Both the position numbers and the translations under genes were made by a program. The notes under the pieces were generated by a model that searched no databases, was not told the origin of the DNA, and was given only the letters and a program-made list of their open reading frames with translations. From Chlorobiota bacterium (GTDB lineage: Bacteria; Bacteroidota; Bacteroidia; Bacteroidales; JAADJA01): a DNA stretch of 39,459 nucleotides. Shown in pieces: positions 18,774 to 30,723 of the stretch (position 1 is its first letter; every line of letters starts with the position of its first letter). Where the stretch lies: the NCBI GenBank assembly GCA_013151015.1, contig JAADJA010000107.1, forward strand, positions 1 to 39,459, read 5' to 3'.

Positions 18774-21700
18774 ATGAAAACAAAGTTACTCTCTTTATTA
18801 CTAATTGCACTTATCAACCTATCAGCCCGATCACAGGATTATCCCTTTTCAGCAACACCTTTATCGGCCACGGATTCGATCTTCCTTACAAACCTTCCCA
18901 GGATCAAGCTCCCCGAGGCCTACAAGTCCAAGGATCTGCCCGATTACCACAACAACAGTGAACTGCCCTGGTTCCGGCCTATTTTCAACCAGTTTGGATG
19001 GTCGTGCGGACAAGCATCCACCATCGGATATACCTATACCTATGAACTGAACCGTTTGCGGGACTTAGCTTCAAATACAGATACGACCCAGTACCACCCG
19101 GCTTTTACCTATAATTATTTTACAGGTGGAGAAAATTCCGTTGGCGTGTGTTACTATTTCACTTATGATGCGATTAAACATGCCGGCAACCCAACATTTC
19201 AGGACTTTGGGGAAATAGACAATGGGCTAACGGTGTGGATGGATTCTTACGACAAATACTATCGCGCCATGCACAACAGGCTCGAAGGGGTCTATTCGAT
19301 TTATGTGGGCGATGAAGAAGGCTTGCTGACATTGAAACATTGGTTGATGGATCATCTCGATGGCTCCGAAACTGGTGGCCTTGCCAATTTTTACACCGAT
19401 TTGTCGGGCTATACGACCCTCCCTCCCGAATCGCCGGAAGCAGGGAAACACGTCATTACCCAATTTGGGGAAAATACCGGGCACTCCATGACCTTTATTG
19501 GCTGGAACGATTCCATCCGTTACGATTATAATGGGGATGGCCAGTTTACCGTTGACCTGGATATCAACAATGATGGAACCGTAAACATGAAGGACCGGGA
19601 AATTGGTGGTGTTATCCTGGCAAATTCGTGGGGCGATGGCTGGGCCGATGAAGGCTTCTGCTATGTGATGTACAAGGTACTTGCCGAAGAAAAGGCAGAT
19701 GGTGGGATTTGGAACAAATCGGTGAACGTTATAAAAGCGAAGGAAGAATACGGTCCCTTGCTCACATTTAAAGTTACCCTGAAGCACGACAGCCGGGACA
19801 AAATAAAAGTGATAGCAGGGATTTCAAACGATACCATGGGTTTGATGCCCGAAAAAATAATGGACTTCCCCATTTTCAACTTCCAGGGCGGAAATTATTA
19901 CATGCAGGGCGATTATTCCGGTGAAGAGTACAAAACCCTTGAGTTTGGGCTGGATGTCAGTCCATTGTTAAGTTACATCGAAAGTGGGGAACCTGCACGC
20001 TTCTTTTTCCAGGTTTTGGAAAATGATCCTGATAACGAAGGGACCGGCGAACTTTTGGCATTCTCCTTATTTGATTACACCGATGGCAAAAACGAGATTA
20101 TCTGCCAGCAAACGCCCATGGGCCTTGTGGAAAACGGGCTTACGAACGTATCGGTTGTCCATACGATCACCATGGACAAGGTAAACATCGAAACGGAAAA
20201 CATACCGGCATTTACGCCAGGCGAACAATATTCGGTGCAGATGGGTGCAAGCGGTGGACAAGAACCCTACAAATGGGAAATTGCCCAGGATTATTTTGAA
20301 AGCCAGGAAGAAGAACCTTACCCCAACATTGAAGCAGAGCAACTCACCCCAACAAATAATGGCCACGGCTACGCAAAAAAAGGACTTGGTTTTCCCTTTC
20401 CTTTTTATGGAAAAACCTATGATACGGTCATGGTGCATACTGATGGGTTTATTATGTTCAGGGAAACGGACCTGCCCCTGCCCTATCAGGTTGATGACAT
20501 GGTATTGTTCAAATACGAAACCATGCTCGCCCCGTTTTTGAAGAAAGAACTACTGATTGCCAGTCCGGCCGATAAAATACTTTACGAAGGAAATGAAGAA
20601 TATGCCTCCTTCCGTTGGAAAGAAAATATTGTTACCGACGAAGGGATGGTCCCTATAGACTTCACTTGTACCTTGTTTCCCGATGGGCGGGTTGAGTACA
20701 ATTACGCCAACCTATCGCTCAATGGCAATGTGAATTGGATAACCGGGCTTTCAAAAGGTGATGGGAACAATTATCACATTTCGGGTTTTTCGAACCTGCT
20801 CCCCGTTGAAAGTGACCAAAAAACAACGTTCGTTCCCGATAATACGATTTCACAAATTGATATTGACGAGGATGGGCTGTTGACAGCTTTTCCTGAAGAA
20901 GAAACCCAGATTTACAACCTTAGCGTTCGGGTTACCGACAACAACGAAATTGCCAACACCCGGACTTATCAACTTTCGAGCGGGCTTCTTTATGAATATT
21001 CCATTTTTTCGGACGGCGACGATCAGGTTGATTTTGGCGATACAGCATATATCAGTTTTACGGTTACGAATACTTCTTCCCAAACGATAAACAATGTCGT
21101 GCTGAATGCCGGGCTTTCTGATGATTTTATGGATATGTTGGATGATTCGGAAAACATTGGGGATATTGAAAGCGGCCAAAGCATTGAAGTGGAAAATGCC
21201 CTCGCCATCGAAGTGAGCGAATTTGTGCCGGACGGGCATTCGGTAAATATCGACCTGGTTTTTGATGCCACGGAACAATCCTGGGAAGCCAACTTGAACA
21301 TAACCGCGAACTCCCCGAAAATAACAGCCGGGATGCTTGTTTTGGATGATGGGGACAATAACAAGCTTGACCCCGGGGACACGGTCAATATTATAATCCC
21401 GGTCAATAACCTGGGCCATGCTTCCATTGATGACGTTACGGGCCTCTTTGAAACAACAGACCCTTATATCAGTTTTCTGACCACTGGCAATTTGGATTTC
21501 GGGACCATATCGAACGGCGCCACGGTTTACGATACAGTGACAATTTTCGTGGACGAAAATACACCTGTCGGCCATATTGCCAATTTCAACCTTGAAGTAA
21601 CAGCCTTGCCACTTGTCCAGATTGAAGAGGTTTATGGATTTCCGGTGGGAAGGTTTCCCGTGCTGATCATTGACCTGGATCCCGGCCTGCTTTCAGGGCC

Positions 21701-22559
21701 TGCCATCGAGGAAGCCATGAACGAACTTGGCATAACCAATACTTATGTGGATGTACTGCCCATGAACCTGGATGAATACCTGAATATATTTGTTGTCCTT
21801 GGAAGGAAATTCGACCAGCATATCCTGAGTGAATATGAAGGACAAAAACTGGCCGAATTCCTTGAATCCAAAGGGAACCTGTACATGGAAGGGGGACTTA
21901 CCTGGAAAGATGACCCGCAAACCCAAGTCCATCCGATGTTCCACACGGGAATTGAAGCTGTTGACTGGTATGAAGTGGATTCCATTTTCGGGATACCTTT
22001 CACATTTACTTACGGTATGCAGTTCAGCTATTCGGGCGACCTGCCCTATTACGATTTCAATTTTGTACCGGATAGCCCTGCATTTACAATACTGACGGGG
22101 CAATCACCGAATAATATTTGTACAGTGGCTTATGATGGAGGCAATTACAAAACAATCGCTTCCATGCTCGATTTTGGAGGTTTTGATGATGGGGAATACC
22201 CTTCGTCAAAAAAGAAAATCATGGCAAGGATCCTGGATTTCTTTGGGATGGAAGGCCTGCTAACATCGGAAAACGAAATCCAGGCGGGCGATAACAAGCT
22301 TGGGTTCTCGTGTTTCCCAAATCCCACATCGGGCAAAACAGATTTTGTCTTTCATCTTGAAAAAGACAGTGAGGTAAGCCTTGACATCATCCCTATAAAT
22401 GGGACAGGGGAGATCAATGTGGTTTCCAATAAAGCATTTCAGCAAGGGCAAAACCGGATTTACTGGAATAGTGATGAAGGCAAGCTTACTCCAGGTATTT
22501 ATATTTGCAGGTTAAGCACACCGGAGGAATCAACATTGATTAAACTTGTTGTTTTTTAA
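18774..22559 (+). CDS. Secreted papain-like (C1) cysteine protease, multidomain, T9SS-exported
   Basis: A 1261-residue secreted protein. After a signal peptide (to about residue 20, LSARSQ) comes a C1-family peptidase domain (about 35-310) with Cys78 in GWSCGQAS, His237 in NTGHSMTFIGW and Asn284 in LANSWGDGW, a complete catalytic triad in the papain order. Between His and Asn lie two calcium-loop-like stretches, DYNGDGQFTVDLD and DINNDGTVNMKD. Next are beta-sandwich domains, including CARDB-like NEW/NPCBM-style strands (VDFGDTAYISFTVTNTS and LDPGDTVNIIIPVNN, about 745-945). A Rossmann-like segment with a GRKFDQHILSEYEGQ region follows, and the last about 85 residues are a T9SS type A sorting domain (SCFPNPTSGKTDF). 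It is probably surface-displayed or released. Substrate unknown. Confidence 0.88.
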   Translation: MKTKLLSLLLIALINLSARSQDYPFSATPLSATDSIFLTNLPRIKLPEAYKSKDLPDYHNNSELPWFRPIFNQFGWSCGQASTIGYTYTYELNRLRDLASNTDTTQYHPAFTYNYFTGGENSVGVCYYFTYDAIKHAGNPTFQDFGEIDNGLTVWMDSYDKYYRAMHNRLEGVYSIYVGDEEGLLTLKHWLMDHLDGSETGGLANFYTDLSGYTTLPPESPEAGKHVITQFGENTGHSMTFIGWNDSIRYDYNGDGQFTVDLDINNDGTVNMKDREIGGVILANSWGDGWADEGFCYVMYKVLAEEKADGGIWNKSVNVIKAKEEYGPLLTFKVTLKHDSRDKIKVIAGISNDTMGLMPEKIMDFPIFNFQGGNYYMQGDYSGEEYKTLEFGLDVSPLLSYIESGEPARFFFQVLENDPDNEGTGELLAFSLFDYTDGKNEIICQQTPMGLVENGLTNVSVVHTITMDKVNIETENIPAFTPGEQYSVQMGASGGQEPYKWEIAQDYFESQEEEPYPNIEAEQLTPTNNGHGYAKKGLGFPFPFYGKTYDTVMVHTDGFIMFRETDLPLPYQVDDMVLFKYETMLAPFLKKELLIASPADKILYEGNEEYASFRWKENIVTDEGMVPIDFTCTLFPDGRVEYNYANLSLNGNVNWITGLSKGDGNNYHISGFSNLLPVESDQKTTFVPDNTISQIDIDEDGLLTAFPEEETQIYNLSVRVTDNNEIANTRTYQLSSGLLYEYSIFSDGDDQVDFGDTAYISFTVTNTSSQTINNVVLNAGLSDDFMDMLDDSENIGDIESGQSIEVENALAIEVSEFVPDGHSVNIDLVFDATEQSWEANLNITANSPKITAGMLVLDDGDNNKLDPGDTVNIIIPVNNLGHASIDDVTGLFETTDPYISFLTTGNLDFGTISNGATVYDTVTIFVDENTPVGHIANFNLEVTALPLVQIEEVYGFPVGRFPVLIIDLDPGLLSGPAIEEAMNELGITNTYVDVLPMNLDEYLNIFVVLGRKFDQHILSEYEGQKLAEFLESKGNLYMEGGLTWKDDPQTQVHPMFHTGIEAVDWYEVDSIFGIPFTFTYGMQFSYSGDLPYYDFNFVPDSPAFTILTGQSPNNICTVAYDGGNYKTIASMLDFGGFDDGEYPSSKKKIMARILDFFGMEGLLTSENEIQAGDNKLGFSCFPNPTSGKTDFVFHLEKDSEVSLDIIPINGTGEINVVSNKAFQQGQNRIYWNSDEGKLTPGIYICRLSTPEESTLIKLVVF

Positions 22560-22703: not shown

Positions 22704-22958
22704 ATGAAAATAAAGAAAAATATTGCCCTAAGCGAATCGGGCTTTGTGTTCAACCCTTCCACGGGCGAATCGTTTTCGGTAAACCCCATTGGCATTGAGG
22801 TTTTCAATGCGATCAAGGAAGAGCAATCCTATGAGGAAATAAGCAAAACCATGTTGAGCAAGTACAATACGGATGGGGATACTTTTGAAAAGGATTACAA
22901 CGACTTTGTACAACTCTTGAACACTTACCAACTTATAGAACTGGCAAATGAAGGATAA
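22704..22958 (+). CDS. PqqD-like (RiPP recognition element) protein
   Basis: An 84-residue protein of the PqqD fold. It opens with IALSESGFVFNPSTGESFSVNPIGIEVFNAI, the beta-strand pair and first helix of the family, and continues with two helices ending in LLNTYQLIEL. PqqD and related RiPP recognition elements bind the leader part of a precursor peptide and present it to the modifying enzyme. Some Bacteroidota members serve other carriers, as in the HPr-rel-A type. The gene overlaps the next one, an ATP-grasp enzyme, by 11 bases and so is translationally linked to it. No separate precursor gene is seen nearby. The leader-like N-terminus of the decarboxylase two genes on is the best candidate ligand. 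Confidence 0.8.
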   Translation: MKIKKNIALSESGFVFNPSTGESFSVNPIGIEVFNAIKEEQSYEEISKTMLSKYNTDGDTFEKDYNDFVQLLNTYQLIELANEG

Positions 22959-23991
22959 GATATGTATTGCCGTAACCGGCCTGAACGCCATCGACAGTCC
23001 AGGACCCGGAATAGCTGTTATCAGGTCATTGCGCGAAGCCAAATCATTTGATGTAAAAATAATCGGGTTGGCCTATGAATCTTTGGAGCCGGGCATCTAT
23101 ATGCACGATGTGGTTGATAAAACCTATCAAATCCCATACCCCACAGCCGGCACCGAAAACCTGTTAAAGCGGTTGGAATATATCCATGACATAGAAAAAA
23201 TAGATGTCATCATCCCGAATTTTGATGCGGAGCTGTTCCCCATGATCAAATTGGAAGCCCAGCTAAAAAAAATTGGGATTAGCATGTTTCTTCCCACGGT
23301 TGAGCAATTTGAAGAACGTTTGAAAATCAACCTCCCCGAGTTTGGGAAAAAGTACGGGATCAAAGTGCCTCACAGCAAAGCCATCTTTTCAACGGCAGAG
23401 ATTGCCGGGTTGATCAATGAGTTTACGTATCCCATTGTCGTTAAAGGGAAACATTATGATGCCGAAATTGCACACACGCCCGAACAGGTAAACACCTATT
23501 ACAATAAAATAAGTGCGAAATGGGGGTTGCCTGTCATCATCCAGCAGTTTATCCACGGGATCGAGTATAACCTTACAGGTCTGGGCGACGGGAAAGGGAA
23601 CACGGTTGCAGCAGTGCCCATGCGCAAACAGTATATCACCGAAAAAGGGAAGGCCTGGGGCGGGATTTCCATTGAAGAGGAAAACATTTTAAAAATTGCA
23701 GAAAACTTTGTGTCTTCCACAAAATGGCGAGGCGGTTTTGAACTTGAACTCCTGAAAGACCCGAACAACAATTTTCACCTTCTGGAGATAAACCCGCGAA
23801 TGCCCGCATGGATTTACCTTTCGGTGGGCGTTGGGCAAAACATCCCCGAAGCTTTGGTGAAGCTTGCCCTTGGCGAAGACGTGAAACCCTTTGACACTTA
23901 TAAGGTCGGTAAAATGTTTATCCGTTATTCATGGGACATGATCGTAGATGTGGAGGAGTTCCATACGCTTTCGACATTGGGGGAACTTTAA
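22948..23991 (+). CDS. ATP-grasp ligase
   Basis: A 347-residue ATP-grasp enzyme, a fold that activates a carboxylate as an acyl-phosphate and joins it to an amine or thiol. The N-terminal Rossmann-like domain starts with ICIAVTGLNAID and has a DVIIPNFDAE strand. The ATP-grasp part shows Lys166 in YPIVVKGKHYDAE, QQFIHGIEYNLTG, and the metal-binding motif LEINPR with Glu280, Asn282 and Arg284. It resembles carbamoyl-phosphate-synthase-like stand-alone ligases rather than glutathione synthetase. It starts inside the PqqD-like gene (11-base overlap) and precedes the decarboxylase by 83 bases. The substrate is unknown. The linkage suggests that it acts on a peptide or amino acid bound by the PqqD-like protein. 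Confidence 0.85.
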   Translation: MKDKICIAVTGLNAIDSPGPGIAVIRSLREAKSFDVKIIGLAYESLEPGIYMHDVVDKTYQIPYPTAGTENLLKRLEYIHDIEKIDVIIPNFDAELFPMIKLEAQLKKIGISMFLPTVEQFEERLKINLPEFGKKYGIKVPHSKAIFSTAEIAGLINEFTYPIVVKGKHYDAEIAHTPEQVNTYYNKISAKWGLPVIIQQFIHGIEYNLTGLGDGKGNTVAAVPMRKQYITEKGKAWGGISIEEENILKIAENFVSSTKWRGGFELELLKDPNNNFHLLEINPRMPAWIYLSVGVGQNIPEALVKLALGEDVKPFDTYKVGKMFIRYSWDMIVDVEEFHTLSTLGEL

Positions 23992-24023
23992 TTGAAACAT
24001 TAAAATATTGAAGCATTAAAACA
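23992..24023 (+). repeat. Two-copy 16-base tandem repeat in the operon gap
   Basis: TTGAAACATTAAAATA (23992-24007) is followed at once by TTGAAGCATTAAAACA (24008-24023), and a weaker third copy begins at 24024. The short AT-rich tandem fills most of the gap between the ATP-grasp and decarboxylase genes. Confidence 0.65.
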
Positions 24024-24074
24024 CTGAAACAAGAACATCAATAAAATAGCATTAATAATAATATTTAAGACAAA

Positions 24075-25433
24075 ATGGAAAAACTAAGATACGAACGTCC
24101 GGTGATAAAAAAACTGGAGACCAACATGCCGAACAAATTTGGCTTGCGAACAGAATATGTTGCAAAAACCCACATTGACGGAGTTGCCGTAAAAGATTTG
24201 ATCAAAGACCATGGATCACCGGTTTTTGTTATTTCGGAGGAAACGATCCGCAAAACTTACCGACAGGCAAAAAAAGCGTTTACGACACGGTATCCAAAAG
24301 TACAGTTTGCCTGGTCTTACAAAACAAACTACCTGGGCGCCGTTTGCCGCACTTTCCACCAGGAAGGTTCCTGGGCCGAAGTGGTCTCTGGTTTTGAATA
24401 CGACAAGGCCCTGAACAATGGCGTGGAAGGGAACAAGATTATTTTCAACGGCCCCGACAAAACCGATGAGGATTTAAAAAAGGCCATCAAAAACGGATCC
24501 CTTATCCACATCGACCATTTGGACGAACTTTATTCGGTAATCGAACTTGCCGAAACAATGAGCACAAAACCAAGGGTAGCCATTCGCATAAATATGGATA
24601 CGGGAATCTATCCCATGTGGGACCGCTTTGGGTTCAATTATGAAAACGGTCAGGCCTGGGATGCGTTGAACAAGATCATGCGCAACAAAAACCTGGAACT
24701 GGTCGGGCTGCACTGCCATATCGGGACATTTATGCTGACGGCACAAGCATATGGAACGGCCGCCTACAAAATGGCCGACCTTGCCCTGGGCATTAAAAAG
24801 AAATACAAGCACGATATCAAGTACATTGATATGGGTGGCGGGTTTGCCTCAAAGAACACGCTCAAAGGATCCTATCTCCCGGGAGCTGACACCAACCCAA
24901 CTTTTGATGATTTTGCCGAAGCCATAACCAGCGCACTCATCAATTCCAACTTTGAACCGGACAACCTTCCTCTATTGATTTTGGAAACGGGCCGTGCCCT
25001 TATAGACGATGCGGGCTTCTTAGTGGGAACCGTAATTTCAAACAAACGCTCGTCCCTCGGAAAAAGGACAACCATTATTGATGTGGGGGTAAATATCCTC
25101 TTTACCTCGTTTTGGTACGAACATAAAGTAACACCGGCACAGCCTTTTACGCAATACACAGAAGACACGACCCTTTATGGACCTTTGTGCATGAACATTG
25201 ACGTGGTACGCGAAAGTGCCAATTTACCTTTATTGAACAAAGGCGACCATTTTGTGATCCACAGTGTGGGCGCATACAATATGACCCAGTGGATGCAGTT
25301 CATAACACTAAGGCCTGCGGTGGTCATGATCGACAAAAACAGCAAGGCACACGTAATCAGGGAAAAAGAGACCATTGACAATATTACCTTGATGGAAAAA
25401 GTGCCGGAGCATTTGGAAGAATTTGAATTGTAA
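24075..25433 (+). CDS. PLP-dependent decarboxylase (fold III, DAP/ornithine decarboxylase-like) with leader-like N-terminus
   Basis: A 452-residue alanine-racemase-fold PLP enzyme related to diaminopimelate, ornithine and carboxynorspermidine decarboxylases. Lys83 in AWSYKTNY is the PLP-binding lysine. LVGLHCHIGT, the glycine loop DMGGGFAS and ILETGRALIDDAG are the other barrel motifs. GPLCMNIDVV carries the catalytic Cys and the substrate-facing Asp of the beta domain. Unusually, about 45 residues precede the barrel. They begin MEKLRYERPVIKKLETNMPN, with the pattern Y-x-x-P-x-I at residues 6-11, the motif by which RRE domains bind lasso-peptide leaders. With a PqqD-like protein and an ATP-grasp enzyme just upstream, the enzyme may be tethered to the PqqD-like protein or be modified itself. 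Substrate unknown. Confidence 0.85.
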   Translation: MEKLRYERPVIKKLETNMPNKFGLRTEYVAKTHIDGVAVKDLIKDHGSPVFVISEETIRKTYRQAKKAFTTRYPKVQFAWSYKTNYLGAVCRTFHQEGSWAEVVSGFEYDKALNNGVEGNKIIFNGPDKTDEDLKKAIKNGSLIHIDHLDELYSVIELAETMSTKPRVAIRINMDTGIYPMWDRFGFNYENGQAWDALNKIMRNKNLELVGLHCHIGTFMLTAQAYGTAAYKMADLALGIKKKYKHDIKYIDMGGGFASKNTLKGSYLPGADTNPTFDDFAEAITSALINSNFEPDNLPLLILETGRALIDDAGFLVGTVISNKRSSLGKRTTIIDVGVNILFTSFWYEHKVTPAQPFTQYTEDTTLYGPLCMNIDVVRESANLPLLNKGDHFVIHSVGAYNMTQWMQFITLRPAVVMIDKNSKAHVIREKETIDNITLMEKVPEHLEEFEL

Positions 25434-25465: not shown

Positions 25466-25687
25466 ATGACAACATTACAATTTGAAAAAAAAATAATTGA
25501 CTACACGAGGGACTTACCTATAGAAGCTTTACAGGAAATATTGGATTTTATAAGTTTTATCCGGTCAAAAAACCAAAAAGCAAATGCTGACACTCTCAAT
25601 TCCGAGCTTTCATTTCTTAATGAATCGCAAAATGAACATTTAGAGGAAGAATTTGCAGATTATAAAACCTTATATCCAATTGAATAA
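25466..25687 (+). CDS. Antitoxin of a PIN-type toxin-antitoxin pair (DUF2281-like)
   Basis: A 73-residue protein that opens with FEKKIIDYTRDLPIEALQEILDFISFIR, the helix typical of short DUF2281/VapB-like antitoxins, followed by a charged, probably disordered tail (NSELSFLNESQNEHLEEEF) that would wrap the toxin. It overlaps the PIN gene by eight bases. It is richer in A and T than the operon on either side and has its own promoter, so the pair looks like an inserted module. The cognate toxin is the next gene. Confidence 0.75.
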   Translation: MTTLQFEKKIIDYTRDLPIEALQEILDFISFIRSKNQKANADTLNSELSFLNESQNEHLEEEFADYKTLYPIE

Positions 25688-26072
25688 GTACGTAACAGAT
25701 ACAATGGCAATTATCCTTCGGCTTGAAAAAAGGAAATTACCCGGGAAAGTAAAGGAAATCTTTAAAAAAGCTGAAAACAATCAATGTGAAATAGTTATTC
25801 CTGCGATAGTATTTGCTGAAATTGCATATCTATCTGAAAGGGGCAGAATTGATACCAATCTTGAAGAAGTCGGGTCATATCTTAAAAAACACAGAACAAT
25901 ATCCGAGTGTTCCCTAAATCTTAAAACCATTACTATAGCTTTTGACATTGATGACATTCCTGAATTGCATGACAAACTTATTTCAGCATCAGCAATGCAG
26001 CATAATCTAAAAATCATTACGAATGATCCTGATATTCAAAAATCAAAATATGTTAAAGCTATTTGGAAATAA
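25680..26072 (+). CDS. PIN-domain toxin (VapC-like ribonuclease)
   Basis: A PIN-domain endoribonuclease toxin, 130 residues from a TTG start at 25680 that overlaps the antitoxin stop by eight bases. This start gives the normal PIN opening (LNKYVTDTMAII); an earlier TTG at 25653 would add nine unusual residues. The acidic active site is complete: Asp7 in VTDT, Glu47 in FAEIAYL, Asp98 in ELHDKLI and Asp116 in ITNDPDI. Known VapC toxins cleave tRNA or rRNA and are held inactive by the antitoxin, which also represses the promoter. The RNA target here is unknown. Confidence 0.85.
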   Translation: MNKYVTDTMAIILRLEKRKLPGKVKEIFKKAENNQCEIVIPAIVFAEIAYLSERGRIDTNLEEVGSYLKKHRTISECSLNLKTITIAFDIDDIPELHDKLISASAMQHNLKIITNDPDIQKSKYVKAIWK

Positions 26073-26195: not shown

Positions 26196-28403
26196 ATGGA
26201 AAAAACACTAAAAAAGATATTCCCCAGTTTTTTGAGCAGTACGCTCAATAGCTATTCACAGATATTTTTCTCGAACGATAAAATATTTGCGAGCATACTG
26301 GTATTGGTGTCTTTTTTTGACCTGAACGCAGGGATCAGTGGCTTGATGGCCGTAATGGCTTCCAATGCTGCCGCCTATCTTATCGGTTTTAACCGCAACA
26401 ACATTATTGCCGGATATTATGGGTTCAACTCCCTTTTGGTTGGGCTTGGGCTGGGGATTTATTACCAAATGAGCCCTATCTTCCTGATGGTCCTTTTGTT
26501 TGCGGCCATATTCACCTTGTTCATAACCATCATGCTCGAAGGTGTGATCGGAAAATATGGCCTTCCCTACCTCAGCATTTCATTCCTTTTGGGCATCTGG
26601 ATGGTCACCTTGGCTTCCCGGCAGTTTTCTGAACTCACCATAAGCGAAAAGGGGATTTATATGTCCAATGAGATTTATTCCATCGGAGGGTATTTTTTTG
26701 TCGGGATTTACAATTGGTTCAATAACCTGAACCTGCACGAATCGGTGGTGATTTATTTCAGGTCGCTGGGGGCGATTTTTTTCCAGTACCATTTATTTGC
26801 GGGCGTCCTCATTGCCATCGGGCTATTGATATACTCACGGATCGCATTCCTGCTTTCCCTGGTCGGGTTTTTCGGGGCTTATCTATTTTACAAGATAGTG
26901 GGCGGAAACCTTTACGAACTAAGTTATGCCTACATCGGCTTTAACTACATACTCACATCCATTGCGATCGGTGGTTTTTTTATCGTTCCGTCCCGCTTTT
27001 CCTTTCTTTGGGTTATTTTCCTTATCCCATTGATTTCGATAACGATTACCAGCACCATTGCCATTTTTGACATGTTCCAGCTTTCCATATTTTCGCTGCC
27101 TTTCAATTTCATCGTTTTGATGTTTTTGTACATCATGAAATTCAGGGAACGTTTTTACCATAACCCAGAAATTGTCAGCTATCAGCAGTTTTCACCTGAG
27201 AAAAACCTCTATTTCCAATTGAACAATAAGGAACGTTTCAATAATTTCAAATACATCCCCGTTGCACTGCCTTTCTGGGGCGAATGGAAAGTAACCCAAG
27301 GACATTATGGCGATATTACCCACCGTGACAAATGGGCCCATGCCTGGGATTTTGAAATTATTGACGATGAGGGCTTAAGTTTTAAAGAAGGGGGAACTGT
27401 GCTGAAAGATTATTTTTGCTACAACAAACCCGTAATTGCCCCTGCCGATGGTTGGGTAGAGGAGGTATTGGACGGCGTAGAAGACAATGACATAGGCGAT
27501 TCGAACCTTGAACAGAATTGGGGGAACACCATCATCCTGAAGATTGGGGAAAAGGTTTATTGCAAAATGAGCCACTTGAAACCAAATTCCTTTAAAGTAA
27601 AAAAAGGGGACACCGTAAAAAAGGGGGACATTCTTGCCGCCTGTGGAAATTCAGGGAGGTCGCCCATTCCGCATATCCATTTCCAGATGCAGGAAACGCC
27701 CTATATTGGTTCTGAAACCCTCAATTATCCAATAGGGAATTATGTACAACACCTTGAAAAAGGATTTGAATTCAAATCTTACGACAAACCCCGGATTACC
27801 GATATGGTCTCCAATATAGAAAAGGACCAAACCCTTTACAAGGCCTATCATTTTGTCCCTGGACAAGTCTTAAAGTTTAGCGTTTCGGGCGGGCAACCGG
27901 GAACCGCAGTAATTGTGAAATGGGAGGTACAAACCGATATTTACAACAACTCCTATTTATATTGCAAAGAAACAAACTCAAAAGCCTGGTTCAAAAACGA
28001 TGGGAGCATTCATTATTTTACCTTATTTGAAGGCGATCGCAGTTCAGTGCTTTTCTACTTCTTCCTTGGGAACTACAAGGTGATAAGTGGATTTTACAAA
28101 GGGATGACGGTAAAGGATGTTTTCCCGATCCATGTGCTGAACAAAAAAGCATGGATTCTTTTGCAGGATTTCATTGCACCGTTTTATATGTTCATGAAAT
28201 CGGAATACCGCATCGAATACGTGAAGATCAAAAAGGATTTTACCGACAGCAAAATTGAACTCAATTCCACGGCACGTGTTAAACGTTATGGAAAAACAAC
28301 AAGGGAAGTGCATTTCAAAATGGAAATCGAGGCAAAGTCTATCCAAATGTTTGAAATCACCGAAGGGAACAAAACAATTGTGGCAAAAAGGATAACGGAT
28401 TAA
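26196..28403 (+). CDS. Urea-transporter-like channel fused to an M23 (LytM) endopeptidase
   Basis: A 735-residue fusion. Residues 1 to about 315 form a polytopic domain of about ten membrane helices resembling the UT urea channel family (SSTLNSYSQIFFSNDKIFAS, AAYLIGFNRNNIIAGYYGFN and YLSISFLLGIWM). After a linker, residues about 355-530 form an M23 peptidase with its zinc ligands in place: His382 and Asp385 in HAWD, His460 in KMSHLKP, and His493 and His495 in PHIHFQ. A beta-rich domain of about 200 residues ends the protein. M23 enzymes cut peptidoglycan cross-bridges or glycyl peptides. The fusion suggests that a small-molecule channel and a cell-wall enzyme act together in the envelope. It begins a three-gene run to 30723. 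Confidence 0.88.
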   Translation: MEKTLKKIFPSFLSSTLNSYSQIFFSNDKIFASILVLVSFFDLNAGISGLMAVMASNAAAYLIGFNRNNIIAGYYGFNSLLVGLGLGIYYQMSPIFLMVLLFAAIFTLFITIMLEGVIGKYGLPYLSISFLLGIWMVTLASRQFSELTISEKGIYMSNEIYSIGGYFFVGIYNWFNNLNLHESVVIYFRSLGAIFFQYHLFAGVLIAIGLLIYSRIAFLLSLVGFFGAYLFYKIVGGNLYELSYAYIGFNYILTSIAIGGFFIVPSRFSFLWVIFLIPLISITITSTIAIFDMFQLSIFSLPFNFIVLMFLYIMKFRERFYHNPEIVSYQQFSPEKNLYFQLNNKERFNNFKYIPVALPFWGEWKVTQGHYGDITHRDKWAHAWDFEIIDDEGLSFKEGGTVLKDYFCYNKPVIAPADGWVEEVLDGVEDNDIGDSNLEQNWGNTIILKIGEKVYCKMSHLKPNSFKVKKGDTVKKGDILAACGNSGRSPIPHIHFQMQETPYIGSETLNYPIGNYVQHLEKGFEFKSYDKPRITDMVSNIEKDQTLYKAYHFVPGQVLKFSVSGGQPGTAVIVKWEVQTDIYNNSYLYCKETNSKAWFKNDGSIHYFTLFEGDRSSVLFYFFLGNYKVISGFYKGMTVKDVFPIHVLNKKAWILLQDFIAPFYMFMKSEYRIEYVKIKKDFTDSKIELNSTARVKRYGKTTREVHFKMEIEAKSIQMFEITEGNKTIVAKRITD

Positions 28404-28462
28404 ACATGAACGAAACGAACAACAATCCTTCGATGGCAATTGCGAAGGGACACCACAAAAAA

Positions 28463-28649
28463 GTCATTGCGAAGAATCCAAAAGTATGCATTGCGCTCAG
28501 CCCTATCGTCAATGCGAAGAACCAAAGGGCAGGCATATGGCAAAGGGGTTCTGTGGCAATCCGTTCATGGTTTGGGCTGCCACTTATAGTAGGCAGATTG
28601 CCCCGGTACTCCCTCCCACGGCCCTTCCTTTTGATGCTCCGCAATGACG
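28463..28649 (+). repeat. Interspersed palindromic element, copy 1
   Basis: An element bounded on the left by GTCATTGCGA-type sequence (28463, with further degenerate CATTGCG copies between 28438 and 28515) and on the right by CGCAATGACG (28640-28649). It contains GGCAGATTGCCCCGG (28592-28606). The last 58 bases match the second copy at 35831-36003 in length and, at both ends, in sequence. The left boundary is uncertain. It lies between the urea-transporter/M23 stop and the signal peptide of the next gene. Confidence 0.8.
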
Positions 28650-30112
28650 TTCGTTACTATAACTGGGCGCACAAGCCAATTATCCTTTCCCTCATATTAT
28701 TCGTTTTTTCATCAAATTTGTTTTCCCAAAACACAAAACCGGATTTCAATACCGTTGACCACCAAACCTACCGTTTTTATTTTTTGGAAAACTGGGATTC
28801 GCTAATCATTACAGGCGAAAAAGCCCTGAAACAGGACATTGATTATTTCTATTTGCGGATGCGGCTCGGGAGGGCGTATTACGAGAAAGATAACTTTTCG
28901 AAATCGGCACAGCATTTTGAAAAGGCATTGGAATACTCTGCCACGAATGCAACAGCCCTTGAATACCTTTACTACAGCTATCTTTTCACCAACCGTGAAC
29001 TGGACGCCAAATTACTGACGAAACAATTCCCGGAATCGCTCAACAAGAAAATCAATCCACCAAAAAACAAAGCCATCGACGAGATTTATTTGGAAACCGG
29101 CCCCACGTCCAGCAACAATATTTCATTGAACAAGAAAGACAACCTAATGGGAAAGGACAGTATTTATGGCGAACACGATTTGAACGACAATAAATATTAT
29201 TTCCATTTGGGCCTCAAAAAAAACATTGGAAAACGGGCTTCTGTTTATGTTGGGTACAGTAAGCTGTCTATTTCGAAGCTAAAGCAAATCCAGGTTTCGG
29301 AACTGGTTAAATCCGGTTACGACACCATCCCGTACAATGGCTGGTATTATGTGGACACGCTTTATTCCAAAGTATATGACCGTTTCGACCATAACTATAA
29401 ACTGTACCAAAATGAGCTGTACCTGAATGCGAACATAGCCCTGGGGAATGGTTTTTTGTTGGTCCCAGCCGCACACCTTGTCCAGGTTCAGTACAATGAA
29501 TTGCACACCCATGTGGACGAAGTGGAATTCTATGCCCAATCTTACGATACTGTCCCCACGACGAAATATGTGCCCCGCTTTCACAGAATCGACACATCCT
29601 TTGTAAATTATGTGGGATGGATGGCGCTCTATAAAAACATTTCGAATTACCGCTTCGGGCTTATGGGCTCCTATTCCGATCTCAACGGAAAAACCCAAGT
29701 CCAGGTGGGCGCCGAAATGGTATGGTTCCCACAAGGAAACCTCGACCTGTATTCCGTGACCAACCTGACCATGGCCATCGAAGACGGGAGAAAAAGGCCG
29801 GTCCTGAAGCAAAAAGTCGGGAGCCACTTGAGCGACAAGCTATGGGGCGAAGCATTGTTTTCGCTTGGAAGCATGATAAATTATACTGAAAGCAATGCTT
29901 TTGTCGTTCATAATTCCGGCGACAAAATTAATTTTAGCATCGGAGCAAACTTAATTTTATCTTTGTCATCAAAAATCGAAGTATCTGTCAGGTACCAATA
30001 TTTTGCGCAAAGCACTTATTGGTACAAATTGTTCAATGACGGTACCATTGCAAACACAACAATCAATTATCAGAATCATCAACTTATTGGAGGATTAAAA
30101 TGGAAACTTTAA
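28634..30112 (+). CDS. TPR-containing outer-membrane beta-barrel protein (YaiO-like)
   Basis: A 492-residue protein from the ATG at 28634. The open frame runs back to 28406, but those 76 codons are the interspersed repeat, and they would put the signal peptide (KPIILSLILFVFSSNLFSQ) far inside, so the shorter start is preferred. After the signal come TPR-like helices (about residues 35-125: YFLENWDSLIITGEKALK, GRAYYEKDNFSKSAQHFEKAL). A long beta-rich region follows, with alternating aromatic strands ending in QNHQLIGGLKWKL, as in outer-membrane barrels. The layout resembles YaiO-type proteins. It overlaps the next TPR gene by 13 bases and follows the urea-transporter/M23 gene closely, so the three probably act together in the envelope. 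Confidence 0.75.
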   Translation: MLRNDVRYYNWAHKPIILSLILFVFSSNLFSQNTKPDFNTVDHQTYRFYFLENWDSLIITGEKALKQDIDYFYLRMRLGRAYYEKDNFSKSAQHFEKALEYSATNATALEYLYYSYLFTNRELDAKLLTKQFPESLNKKINPPKNKAIDEIYLETGPTSSNNISLNKKDNLMGKDSIYGEHDLNDNKYYFHLGLKKNIGKRASVYVGYSKLSISKLKQIQVSELVKSGYDTIPYNGWYYVDTLYSKVYDRFDHNYKLYQNELYLNANIALGNGFLLVPAAHLVQVQYNELHTHVDEVEFYAQSYDTVPTTKYVPRFHRIDTSFVNYVGWMALYKNISNYRFGLMGSYSDLNGKTQVQVGAEMVWFPQGNLDLYSVTNLTMAIEDGRKRPVLKQKVGSHLSDKLWGEALFSLGSMINYTESNAFVVHNSGDKINFSIGANLILSLSSKIEVSVRYQYFAQSTYWYKLFNDGTIANTTINYQNHQLIGGLKWKL

Positions 30113-30723
30113 GAAAATCGATTATTATCGCACTTGCGCTCACAACACTTACGTTTACTGCTTTTTCGCAGGACTACAAAGGCATACAAAATGCCTTTGA
30201 GAAAAGTTATCTGTACGAATACAGTGGCGATTACCCCAAAGCCATCGACGAATTAAAGGAAGTTTATGACGAAACCTCCTATGAAGTCAACCTCCGTTTG
30301 GGATGGCTGACCTATATGGCCGGTTTTTTTACGGAATCGGCTGCCTATTACCAAAAAGCCATCGACCTGAAACCTTTGTCCATTGAAGCAAAATTTGGTT
30401 TCACTTATCCCGCTTCGGCACTTGGAAACTGGGAACAGGTAAAAAACAGCTACAAGGAAATCCTGAAGATTGACCCACAGAATTCTTCTGCCAATTACAA
30501 GCTGGGGTCCATTTATTATGGAAATGAAGATTTCACCACCGCCCTTAAATATTTTGAAAAAATCGTGAACCTGTACCCCTTTGATTATGACGGTTTGCTA
30601 ATGTATGCCTGGACCAACCTGAAACTGGGCAAATTCCGGGAAGCCGAAGTGCTTTTCAACAAAGTGCTGATGAACCGGCCCAGCGACAAATCGGCCATTG
30701 AGGGGCTGGGGCTGATTAAATAA
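30100..30723 (+). CDS. Exported TPR protein
   Basis: A 207-residue protein with a signal peptide (SIIIALALTTLTFTAFSQ) and four or five tetratricopeptide repeats (EYSGDYPKAIDELKEVY, GFFTESAAYYQKAIDLKP, GNWEQVKNSYKEILKIDPQN, EDFTTALKYFEKIVNLYP, GKFREAEVLFNKVLMNRP). Such repeats bind partner proteins. The start overlaps the barrel gene by 13 bases, so the two are translationally coupled. It is probably the periplasmic partner of the barrel. Confidence 0.88.
   Translation: METLRKSIIIALALTTLTFTAFSQDYKGIQNAFEKSYLYEYSGDYPKAIDELKEVYDETSYEVNLRLGWLTYMAGFFTESAAYYQKAIDLKPLSIEAKFGFTYPASALGNWEQVKNSYKEILKIDPQNSSANYKLGSIYYGNEDFTTALKYFEKIVNLYPFDYDGLLMYAWTNLKLGKFREAEVLFNKVLMNRPSDKSAIEGLGLIK

Follow-up and report, generated by a model that had tools for sequence, protein, structure and literature searches.

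A PqqD-like protein, an ATP-grasp ligase and a pyridoxal 5'-phosphate (PLP)-dependent decarboxylase with a distinctive N-terminal tail constitute a conserved cassette that is widespread in Bacteroidota. It is described here from a contig of a Chlorobiota bacterium placed by GTDB in the order Bacteroidales (JAADJA010000107.1, assembly GCA_013151015.1; the window, below, is this whole stretch of 39,459 nucleotides read on its forward strand). With a probability that we put at roughly 60%, the tail of the decarboxylase is a dock of the kind recognized by RiPP recognition elements (RREs; RiPP, ribosomally synthesized and post-translationally modified peptide), which would be bound by the PqqD-like protein and would bring the ATP-grasp ligase and the decarboxylase together for conjugation followed by decarboxylation. 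The three genes lie in series on the plus strand at 22704-25433, as an earlier note on this DNA had described: the PqqD-like protein (22704..22958; 84 residues), which scores 39.8 bits (E 5.6e-10) against the Pfam PqqD family with its cut-off of 23.4; the ATP-grasp ligase (22948..23991; 347 residues) of the carbamoyl-phosphate-synthase-like/ATPgrasp_Ter type (Pfam ATPgrasp_Ter 1.1e-10), whose open reading frame (ORF) overlaps that of the PqqD-like protein by 11 bases; and the alanine-racemase-fold decarboxylase (24075..25433; 452 residues; Pfam Orn_Arg_deC_N 2.4e-31 and Orn_DAP_Arg_deC 1.4e-12). The extra N-terminus that the same note had placed ahead of the barrel of the decarboxylase is likewise present: the protein begins MEKLRYERPVIKKL, residues 1-33 precede the barrel, and the reading frame opens just two codons 5' of the Met. 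The cassette extends past these three genes, to about 30723.

Searches at a threshold of 1e-80 recovered the decarboxylase from 27 of 296 genomes sampled across the phylum, and the ATP-grasp ligase is found in exactly the same set of 27. In samples that overlap with this one and with each other, the cassette decarboxylase occurs in 60 of 295 genomes from the class of the window and in 8 of 215 from a second class (that of G119); three of the 60 with fragmentary matches (G602, G474 and G610) were left out. Across 25 genomes a clear gap separates the cassette enzymes from other homologues, the weakest cassette match being at 7.8e-143 and the best other match at 1.6e-39. The first contig scan covered the best 80 of 561 decarboxylase relatives. 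In the counts out of 109 loci given below, the window enters both under its own name and as L001, and genome G124 both as L106 and as L109 (probably ends of contigs that are repeated); the set of 164 unique decarboxylase loci is free of these duplicates. The ATP-grasp gene is in the same sequence piece at 161 of the 164 and the PqqD gene at 154, the latter being accounted for in 158 after follow-up: at two loci (L214 and L228) it was located once longer pieces were examined; in the genome of a third (L050) both PqqD and ATP-grasp genes are on another contig; and at a fourth (L108, genome G255) it sits upstream past one intervening gene. Six further pieces (L003, L009, L024, L026, L043 and L070) stop upstream, before the expected position of PqqD. 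The genome of the window has a second copy of the cassette (L002), 68% identical and with its own PqqD and ATP-grasp genes. Among plasmid records the only match at E 1e-40 was a haloarchaeal lysA, 29% identical. A literature search judged by title and abstract returned no description of this cassette.

The tail (24075..24173, plus strand) has the consensus (Y/F)ExPx(I/L/V)...NKFG across the 163 of 164 loci at which it is readable, one locus (L054) having been excluded for its split frame. It holds two islands under strong selection. The first, residues 6-11 (24090..24107), reads YERPVI in the window and resembles the sequences recognized by RREs: residue 6 is Tyr in 155 tails and Phe in eight, and Pro9 and an Ile, Leu or Val at residue 11 are found in all 163. 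The second, NKFG at residues 20-23 (24132..24143), has an invariant Lys21 (163/163) and a Gly23 kept in 162/163; from residue 6 to Lys21 the spacing is 15 in 109 of the 109 tails measured. Put as [Y/F]xxPx[I/L/V], a leader-type recognition motif is present on the decarboxylase in every readable tail. The motif given for RREs of lasso peptides, [Y/W]xxPx[L/V/I/F/A] (PMC13381572), fits 155 of them, the other eight having Phe. To gauge chance, 714 predicted control ORFs, with redundancy kept, were scanned for a motif as permissive as [YWF]xxPx[LVIFA]: 24 have it among their 30 N-terminal residues, as against 163 of 163 cassette tails. Codon differences from the window, across 57 gapless loci that are related and hence not independent, show the selection on both islands: the nonsynonymous to synonymous count is 33/157 (0.21) for residues 6-11 and 5/117 (0.04) for residues 20-23, compared with 0.62 for residues 34-452, 0.76 for residues 2-17 overall and 1.61 for the linker at residues 24-33.

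In an AlphaFold2 model of the monomer, built from 46 similar rows, the tail is left unstructured, with a mean predicted local distance difference test (pLDDT) score of 31 for residues 1-10, 31 for residues 11-20 and 50 for residues 21-30, and of 94 for the block that follows; packing onto the barrel, which the earlier note had named as evidence that would speak against its proposal, is not what the model depicts. The tail also goes with the cassette. A profile of 26 tails run against the 296 genomes picked out the decarboxylases, in all 27 cassette genomes and with E values no worse than 5.5e-13, and had no other match below E 0.008 (102 genomes have something at 0.5); as this profile was partly built from the same loci, it is informative just for the want of other carriers. 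There were 26 non-cassette matches, five of them without a locus. The 21 that were read, among them a short one (L128) to a protein of another kind, share 22-27% identity, lack the tail in the aligned stretch and have no PqqD or ATP-grasp match within their pieces at 0.01. The check suggested in the earlier note, whether the tail is retained only beside PqqD and ATP-grasp genes, thus did not refute its proposal: we found no tailed homologue without the cassette, and the 21 non-cassette homologues are tail-less over the aligned stretch.

On the evidence of profiles and of a confident AlphaFold2 model (pLDDT 91), the PqqD-like protein has the winged-helix PqqD fold. The folds nearest to the model are the TbiB1-leader complexes 5v1u and 5v1v (query TM-score, TMq, 0.83-0.86), and 6jx3 scores 0.81; a profile of 71 PqqD-like sequences matches TbiB1 at 5.6e-13, TfuB1 at 2.1e-6 and PbaB1 at 9.8e-4. 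In the PbaB1 study (PMC13381572), the double change G42N/Q79D makes this RRE bind a Tyr leader much better, F83 divides its two leader pockets, and D70 of LppB hydrogen-bonds the leader Tyr. All three of these PbaB1 positions have conserved counterparts: Asn27 (22782..22784, plus strand) aligns with G42 and with N33 of LppB, and is found in 100/100 aligned sequences; Asp64 (22893..22895) aligns with Q79 and with D70 of LppB, and is found in 96/102; Phe68 (22905..22907) aligns with F83, and is found in 100/102. More generally, 13 groove positions mapped from PbaB1 are largely conserved, the hydrophobic ones being largely kept. By this comparison, it is well supported that the groove retains the Asn and the Asp that favour Tyr leaders, matching the tail of the decarboxylase.

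Asp64 of the PqqD-like protein further covaries with residue 6 of the tail. Across 154 unique loci the pairs (tail residue 6/PqqD residue 64) are distributed as follows: Y/D 144, Y/N 1, F/Y 6, F/S 1, F/H 1, F/D 0 and gap 1. Out of 30,213 usable inter-protein column pairs, this one ranks first by mutual information (MI) normalized by the entropies of the two columns as MI/sqrt(HH) (0.79; next 0.55), first by MI/max H, and second by MI with average product correction (APC). There are two supported independent pairs; agreement between the two traits averages 1.5 over them, and changes in opposite directions never occur. We regard this covariation as supporting, and not as proving, a match between the tail and the PqqD-like protein. 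The top APC pair, tail residue 15 with PqqD residue 22, has a register plausible for strand pairing; it was dropped as evidence because a single deep split accounts for most of it, agreement averaging only 0.5 among 3 supported independent pairs.

The earlier note had seen no separate precursor gene nearby, and no conserved precursor ORF was found in the flanks scanned: no short gene with leader and core came to light, and a divergent or distant precursor with only a YxxP motif would escape these scans. Across all loci and the window, 37 short ORFs match the leader-like motif; in L054 the match is the tail itself, split off from its enzyme. Three sets recur, all of them on the minus strand, namely SYxRPMI (L006, L010 and L068), FxRPVL (L015, L025, L044 and L046) and FFPKPKL (L021, L023 and L061), and the SYxRPMI and FxRPVL sets are antisense to cassette genes. 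Among 2,799 small ORFs outside the cassette genes of 107 loci, the widest family spans 17 loci and is antisense, about 2 kb upstream; the widest same-strand families are two in number, at 9/107 loci each; one lies some 1.8 kb ahead of the decarboxylase, and its example lacks the motif. One genome with the cassette (G111) also encodes, on contig C6 (L205/L206), a second PqqD-like protein (E 1.2e-5) whose neighbours resemble a lasso cluster by eye. Taken as a positive control, this cluster gave no convincing precursor among its short ORFs, and the control is therefore uninformative.

As to the enzyme, its barrel and C-terminal sheet domains, both above the Pfam cut-offs, and its invariant K83 and C372 (46/46) mark it as an alanine-racemase-fold PLP decarboxylase. 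Lys83 (24321..24323, plus strand) is presumably the lysine that binds PLP, as in the decarboxylase family. Its nearest solved relative is the N-citrylornithine decarboxylase FslC/FigC (7kh2; 1.2e-59 by sequence and 3.7e-37 by fold). According to PMC7857480, FigC has a Thr in place of the Arg with which diaminopimelate decarboxylase (DAPDC) contacts the distal carboxylate and, following the catalytic Cys, a Met at a position that is acidic in others; besides SbnH, AcsE, MccE and BtrK, whose substrates are conjugated, its clade includes DAPDC and D-ornithine decarboxylase. Thr344, Tyr348 and Met373 of the window enzyme align with T327, Y331 and M355 of FigC, and Cys372-Met373 (25188..25193, plus strand) is invariant in 46/46, the Met thereby occupying the acidic position of diaminopimelate and ornithine decarboxylases as it does in FigC. 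H357 and R387, the citrate contacts proposed for FigC in the same source, instead align with Ile375 and Gln405, and the enzyme falls below the NCBIfam cut-off for FslC (250 of 500 bits). Because the FslC-like Thr344 and Met373 are kept but the citrate-contact His and Arg are replaced, the enzyme probably acts on an amino acid conjugate other than a citrylated one; such a substrate would fit an ATP-grasp partner.

What stands of the interpretation offered in the earlier note is that an RRE-type recognition sequence very probably resides on the decarboxylase itself, the groove of the PqqD-like protein being matched to it; this follows from the conservation of the cassette, the tail motif, the RRE fold and groove, the Tyr6-Asp64 covariation, and the failure to find a conserved precursor in the flanks scanned. 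The first approximately 30 residues would accordingly serve as a leader-type tail, and sequence, fold class, groove residues and covariation together argue strongly that the PqqD-like protein would bind YERPxI in its groove. It may thereby keep the two enzymes, decarboxylase and ATP-grasp ligase, in one assembly. Given the FslC-like site and the constant pairing of ligase and decarboxylase, the ligase could conjugate an amino acid, whose alpha-carboxylate the decarboxylase would then strip. In this case RRE-leader recognition would serve to dock one enzyme to another, and no precursor peptide would be involved.

Several observations weigh against this docking model. RRE docking by itself leaves the NKFG island unexplained. 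Low pLDDT is no proof of disorder in the tail, because the invariant catalytic loop at residues 370-379 is also below 50, as are residues 263-267. The groove mapping depends on the weak PbaB1 profile alignment (9.8e-4), and in it E75 of PbaB1 aligns with Thr60 of the PqqD-like protein. With regard to covariation, the 6-64 pair ranks just 5,127 by raw MI, a measure that favours variable columns; the next-best partners of PqqD residue 64 are the barrel columns 380, 351 and 384, a pattern that no contact would explain and that is a sign of shared ancestry. Moreover, all rows with Phe6 or without Asp64 fall in one group of 11, with 2-4 changes per trait by a fewest-changes count, and since the co-changes amount to two or three events within that group a sign test cannot reach significance. 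Finally, the second copy in the genome of the window (L002) combines Tyr6 with Asn64.

That the tail is also a carrier or substrate, with the PqqD-like protein presenting it, the ATP-grasp ligase acylating Lys21 of NKFG and the decarboxylase acting on the attached amino acid, by analogy to BtrI-BtrJ-BtrK with a fused carrier, strikes us as unlikely. The invariance of Lys21, its fixed distance from residue 6 and the lowest nonsynonymous to synonymous ratio (0.04) of its island would all suit a loaded residue, and BtrK decarboxylates a glutamyl group borne by an 87-residue carrier protein (PMC7857480). Equally, NKFG could be conserved as a second docking contact, and in butirosin the carrier is a separate acyl-carrier protein that holds its cargo as a thioester (written BtrI-S-glutamate in that source). 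The bolder version, in which the N-terminus is a fused RiPP-like carrier presented by the RRE, Lys21 is loaded with an amino acid by the ATP-grasp ligase and the enzyme acts as decarboxylase on the substrate bound to its own tail, ahead of release and export, thereby uniting precursor and catalyst in one protein, we consider quite unlikely. Alternatively, the PqqD-like protein might serve a true precursor encoded elsewhere, the decarboxylase tail being a secondary or regulatory ligand. To our knowledge, all characterized RREs of this fold bind precursor leaders. Against such a precursor stand the lack of any other tail-profile match below E 0.008 in the 296 genomes and of a conserved motif-bearing short ORF in the flanks (where one that is divergent or distant, with YxxP alone, would go unseen), and we hold it to be improbable.

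Constant spacing and strong conservation would equally be expected of a structural or dimer-interface element whose likeness to an RRE motif is due to chance, with the PqqD-like protein acting otherwise, and the AlphaFold2 model, which depicts a monomer, lacks confidence in places; nevertheless, the homologues of the same fold that were read do without the tail, residues 1-20 have a mean pLDDT of about 31, and the Tyr6-Asp64 covariation and the conservation of the PqqD groove would be unaccounted for, so that this option too appears scarcely probable. Least credible, indeed highly improbable, is that the enzyme is simply LysA, the usual diaminopimelate decarboxylase, with neighbours unrelated to it, a candidate that we rejected on the family cut-off and active-site residues. 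The window decarboxylase shares its Pfam families with LysA, and the genome of the window (G000; 94.76% complete) has no lysA-family match beyond its two cassette decarboxylases, both of which are below the cut-off, and in G124, likewise, nothing but the cassette enzyme matches at E 1e-5; the canonical lysA of the former genome may be missing or unassembled. It reaches only 223.5 of the 297.9 bits set for lysA, however, and in an alignment with 1twi the distal-carboxylate Arg of DAPDC (PMC7857480) corresponds to Thr344, which is invariant, while Met373 occupies the acidic position next to the catalytic Cys. Five of seven cassette genomes examined (G005, G037, G093, G150 and G255) hold a separate, tail-less LysA-like homologue. 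It is hence to the docking of the decarboxylase by the PqqD-like protein that we give preference.

Beyond the three-gene core, the cassette includes genes downstream on the plus strand. A 735-residue fusion of a urea-transporter (UT) and an M23-type domain (26196..28403) is a cassette member with homologues at 101 of the 109 loci; the other eight comprise five with less than 1.2 kb downstream and three (L028, L067 and L082) with about 6 kb. The PHxH motif of this protein is invariant in the 83-85 rows that align there and, upstream of it, His376 and Asp385 occur in 92/92, but the histidine of the usual HxxxD motif is not conserved. It is followed by a TPR and probable outer-membrane protein (28406..30112; Pfam TPR below the cut-off), with homologues at 64/109 loci, 27 others being too short to reach it, and by a 207-residue TPR protein (30100..30723; Pfam TPR), with homologues at 57/109, many others again being too short. 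The first approximately 75-100 residues of the former ORF (28406-28690) are uncovered, four homologue alignments beginning at residues 76-104; they are probably not part of the gene, and our guess is that a dispersed repeat has been read as coding.

A pair of genes between the decarboxylase and the UT-M23 gene (25466..26072, plus strand) codes for a DUF2281-like protein, below the Pfam cut-off, and a PIN protein, above it; this toxin-antitoxin-like pair is found among the 109 loci only at L001, that is the window, and its near-copy L003, and is not a cassette member. In the second cassette of this genome, an HGSNAT-like membrane acyltransferase (L193:7905-8948) lies between the decarboxylase and the UT-M23 gene. 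HGSNAT-like genes occur at 6/109 loci including this one (L002), and elsewhere they are placed differently. Just upstream of the cassette, a 1261-residue protein (18774-22559) has a match to a type IX sorting tail below the Pfam cut-off and homologues at 5 loci.

The cassette recalls several known systems and differs from each of them. With the lasso B1 RREs and their leaders (TbiB1, 5v1u/5v1v; TfuB1/FusB1, 6jx3; PbaB1, 9x90) and with LppB it shares the RRE fold, the YxxPx[I/L/V] motif and the Asn/Asp groove that favours Tyr leaders. Unlike in those systems, the recognized sequence would here be on a 452-residue enzyme, and the conserved cassette genes (ATP-grasp, decarboxylase, UT-M23 and TPR) include no precursor, leader peptidase or lasso cyclase. 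FslC/FigC (7kh2) is the nearest solved relative of the decarboxylase and shares with it the aligned Thr, Tyr and Met; in comparison with it, the cassette enzyme has the proposed citrate-contact residues replaced, an ATP-grasp partner instead of a nonribosomal peptide synthetase-independent siderophore (NIS) synthetase, an extra tail and a score below the NCBIfam cut-off. BtrJ of the butirosin pathway is an ATP-grasp ligase. BtrI/BtrJ/BtrK likewise combine such a ligase with an alanine-racemase-fold decarboxylase, BtrK, that works on a conjugated amino acid; here an RRE stands in place of the carrier, BtrK is a more distant match (1e-26), and no acyl-carrier protein (ACP) is present among the Pfam-named conserved cassette genes, the unnamed small ORFs not having been scanned for ACPs. 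PEARL scaffold-peptide pathways and graspetides pair ribosomal scaffolds with ligases, whereas the flanks of the cassette yielded neither a scaffold nor a precursor peptide, and its ATP-grasp protein matches other families.

RREs serve as markers of RiPP clusters. The cassette appears to represent a large family in Bacteroidota in which the partner of the RRE is an enzyme. If this is true, leader recognition doubles as a device for docking enzymes, located on an enzyme rather than on a peptide precursor, and PqqD-like proteins without a nearby precursor would be explained. For the organisms that carry it, the cassette points to a possibly exported product, which on the tentative evidence of the neighbouring genes is probably a specialized metabolite or an envelope component that the UT-M23 and TPR/outer-membrane-type proteins would handle.

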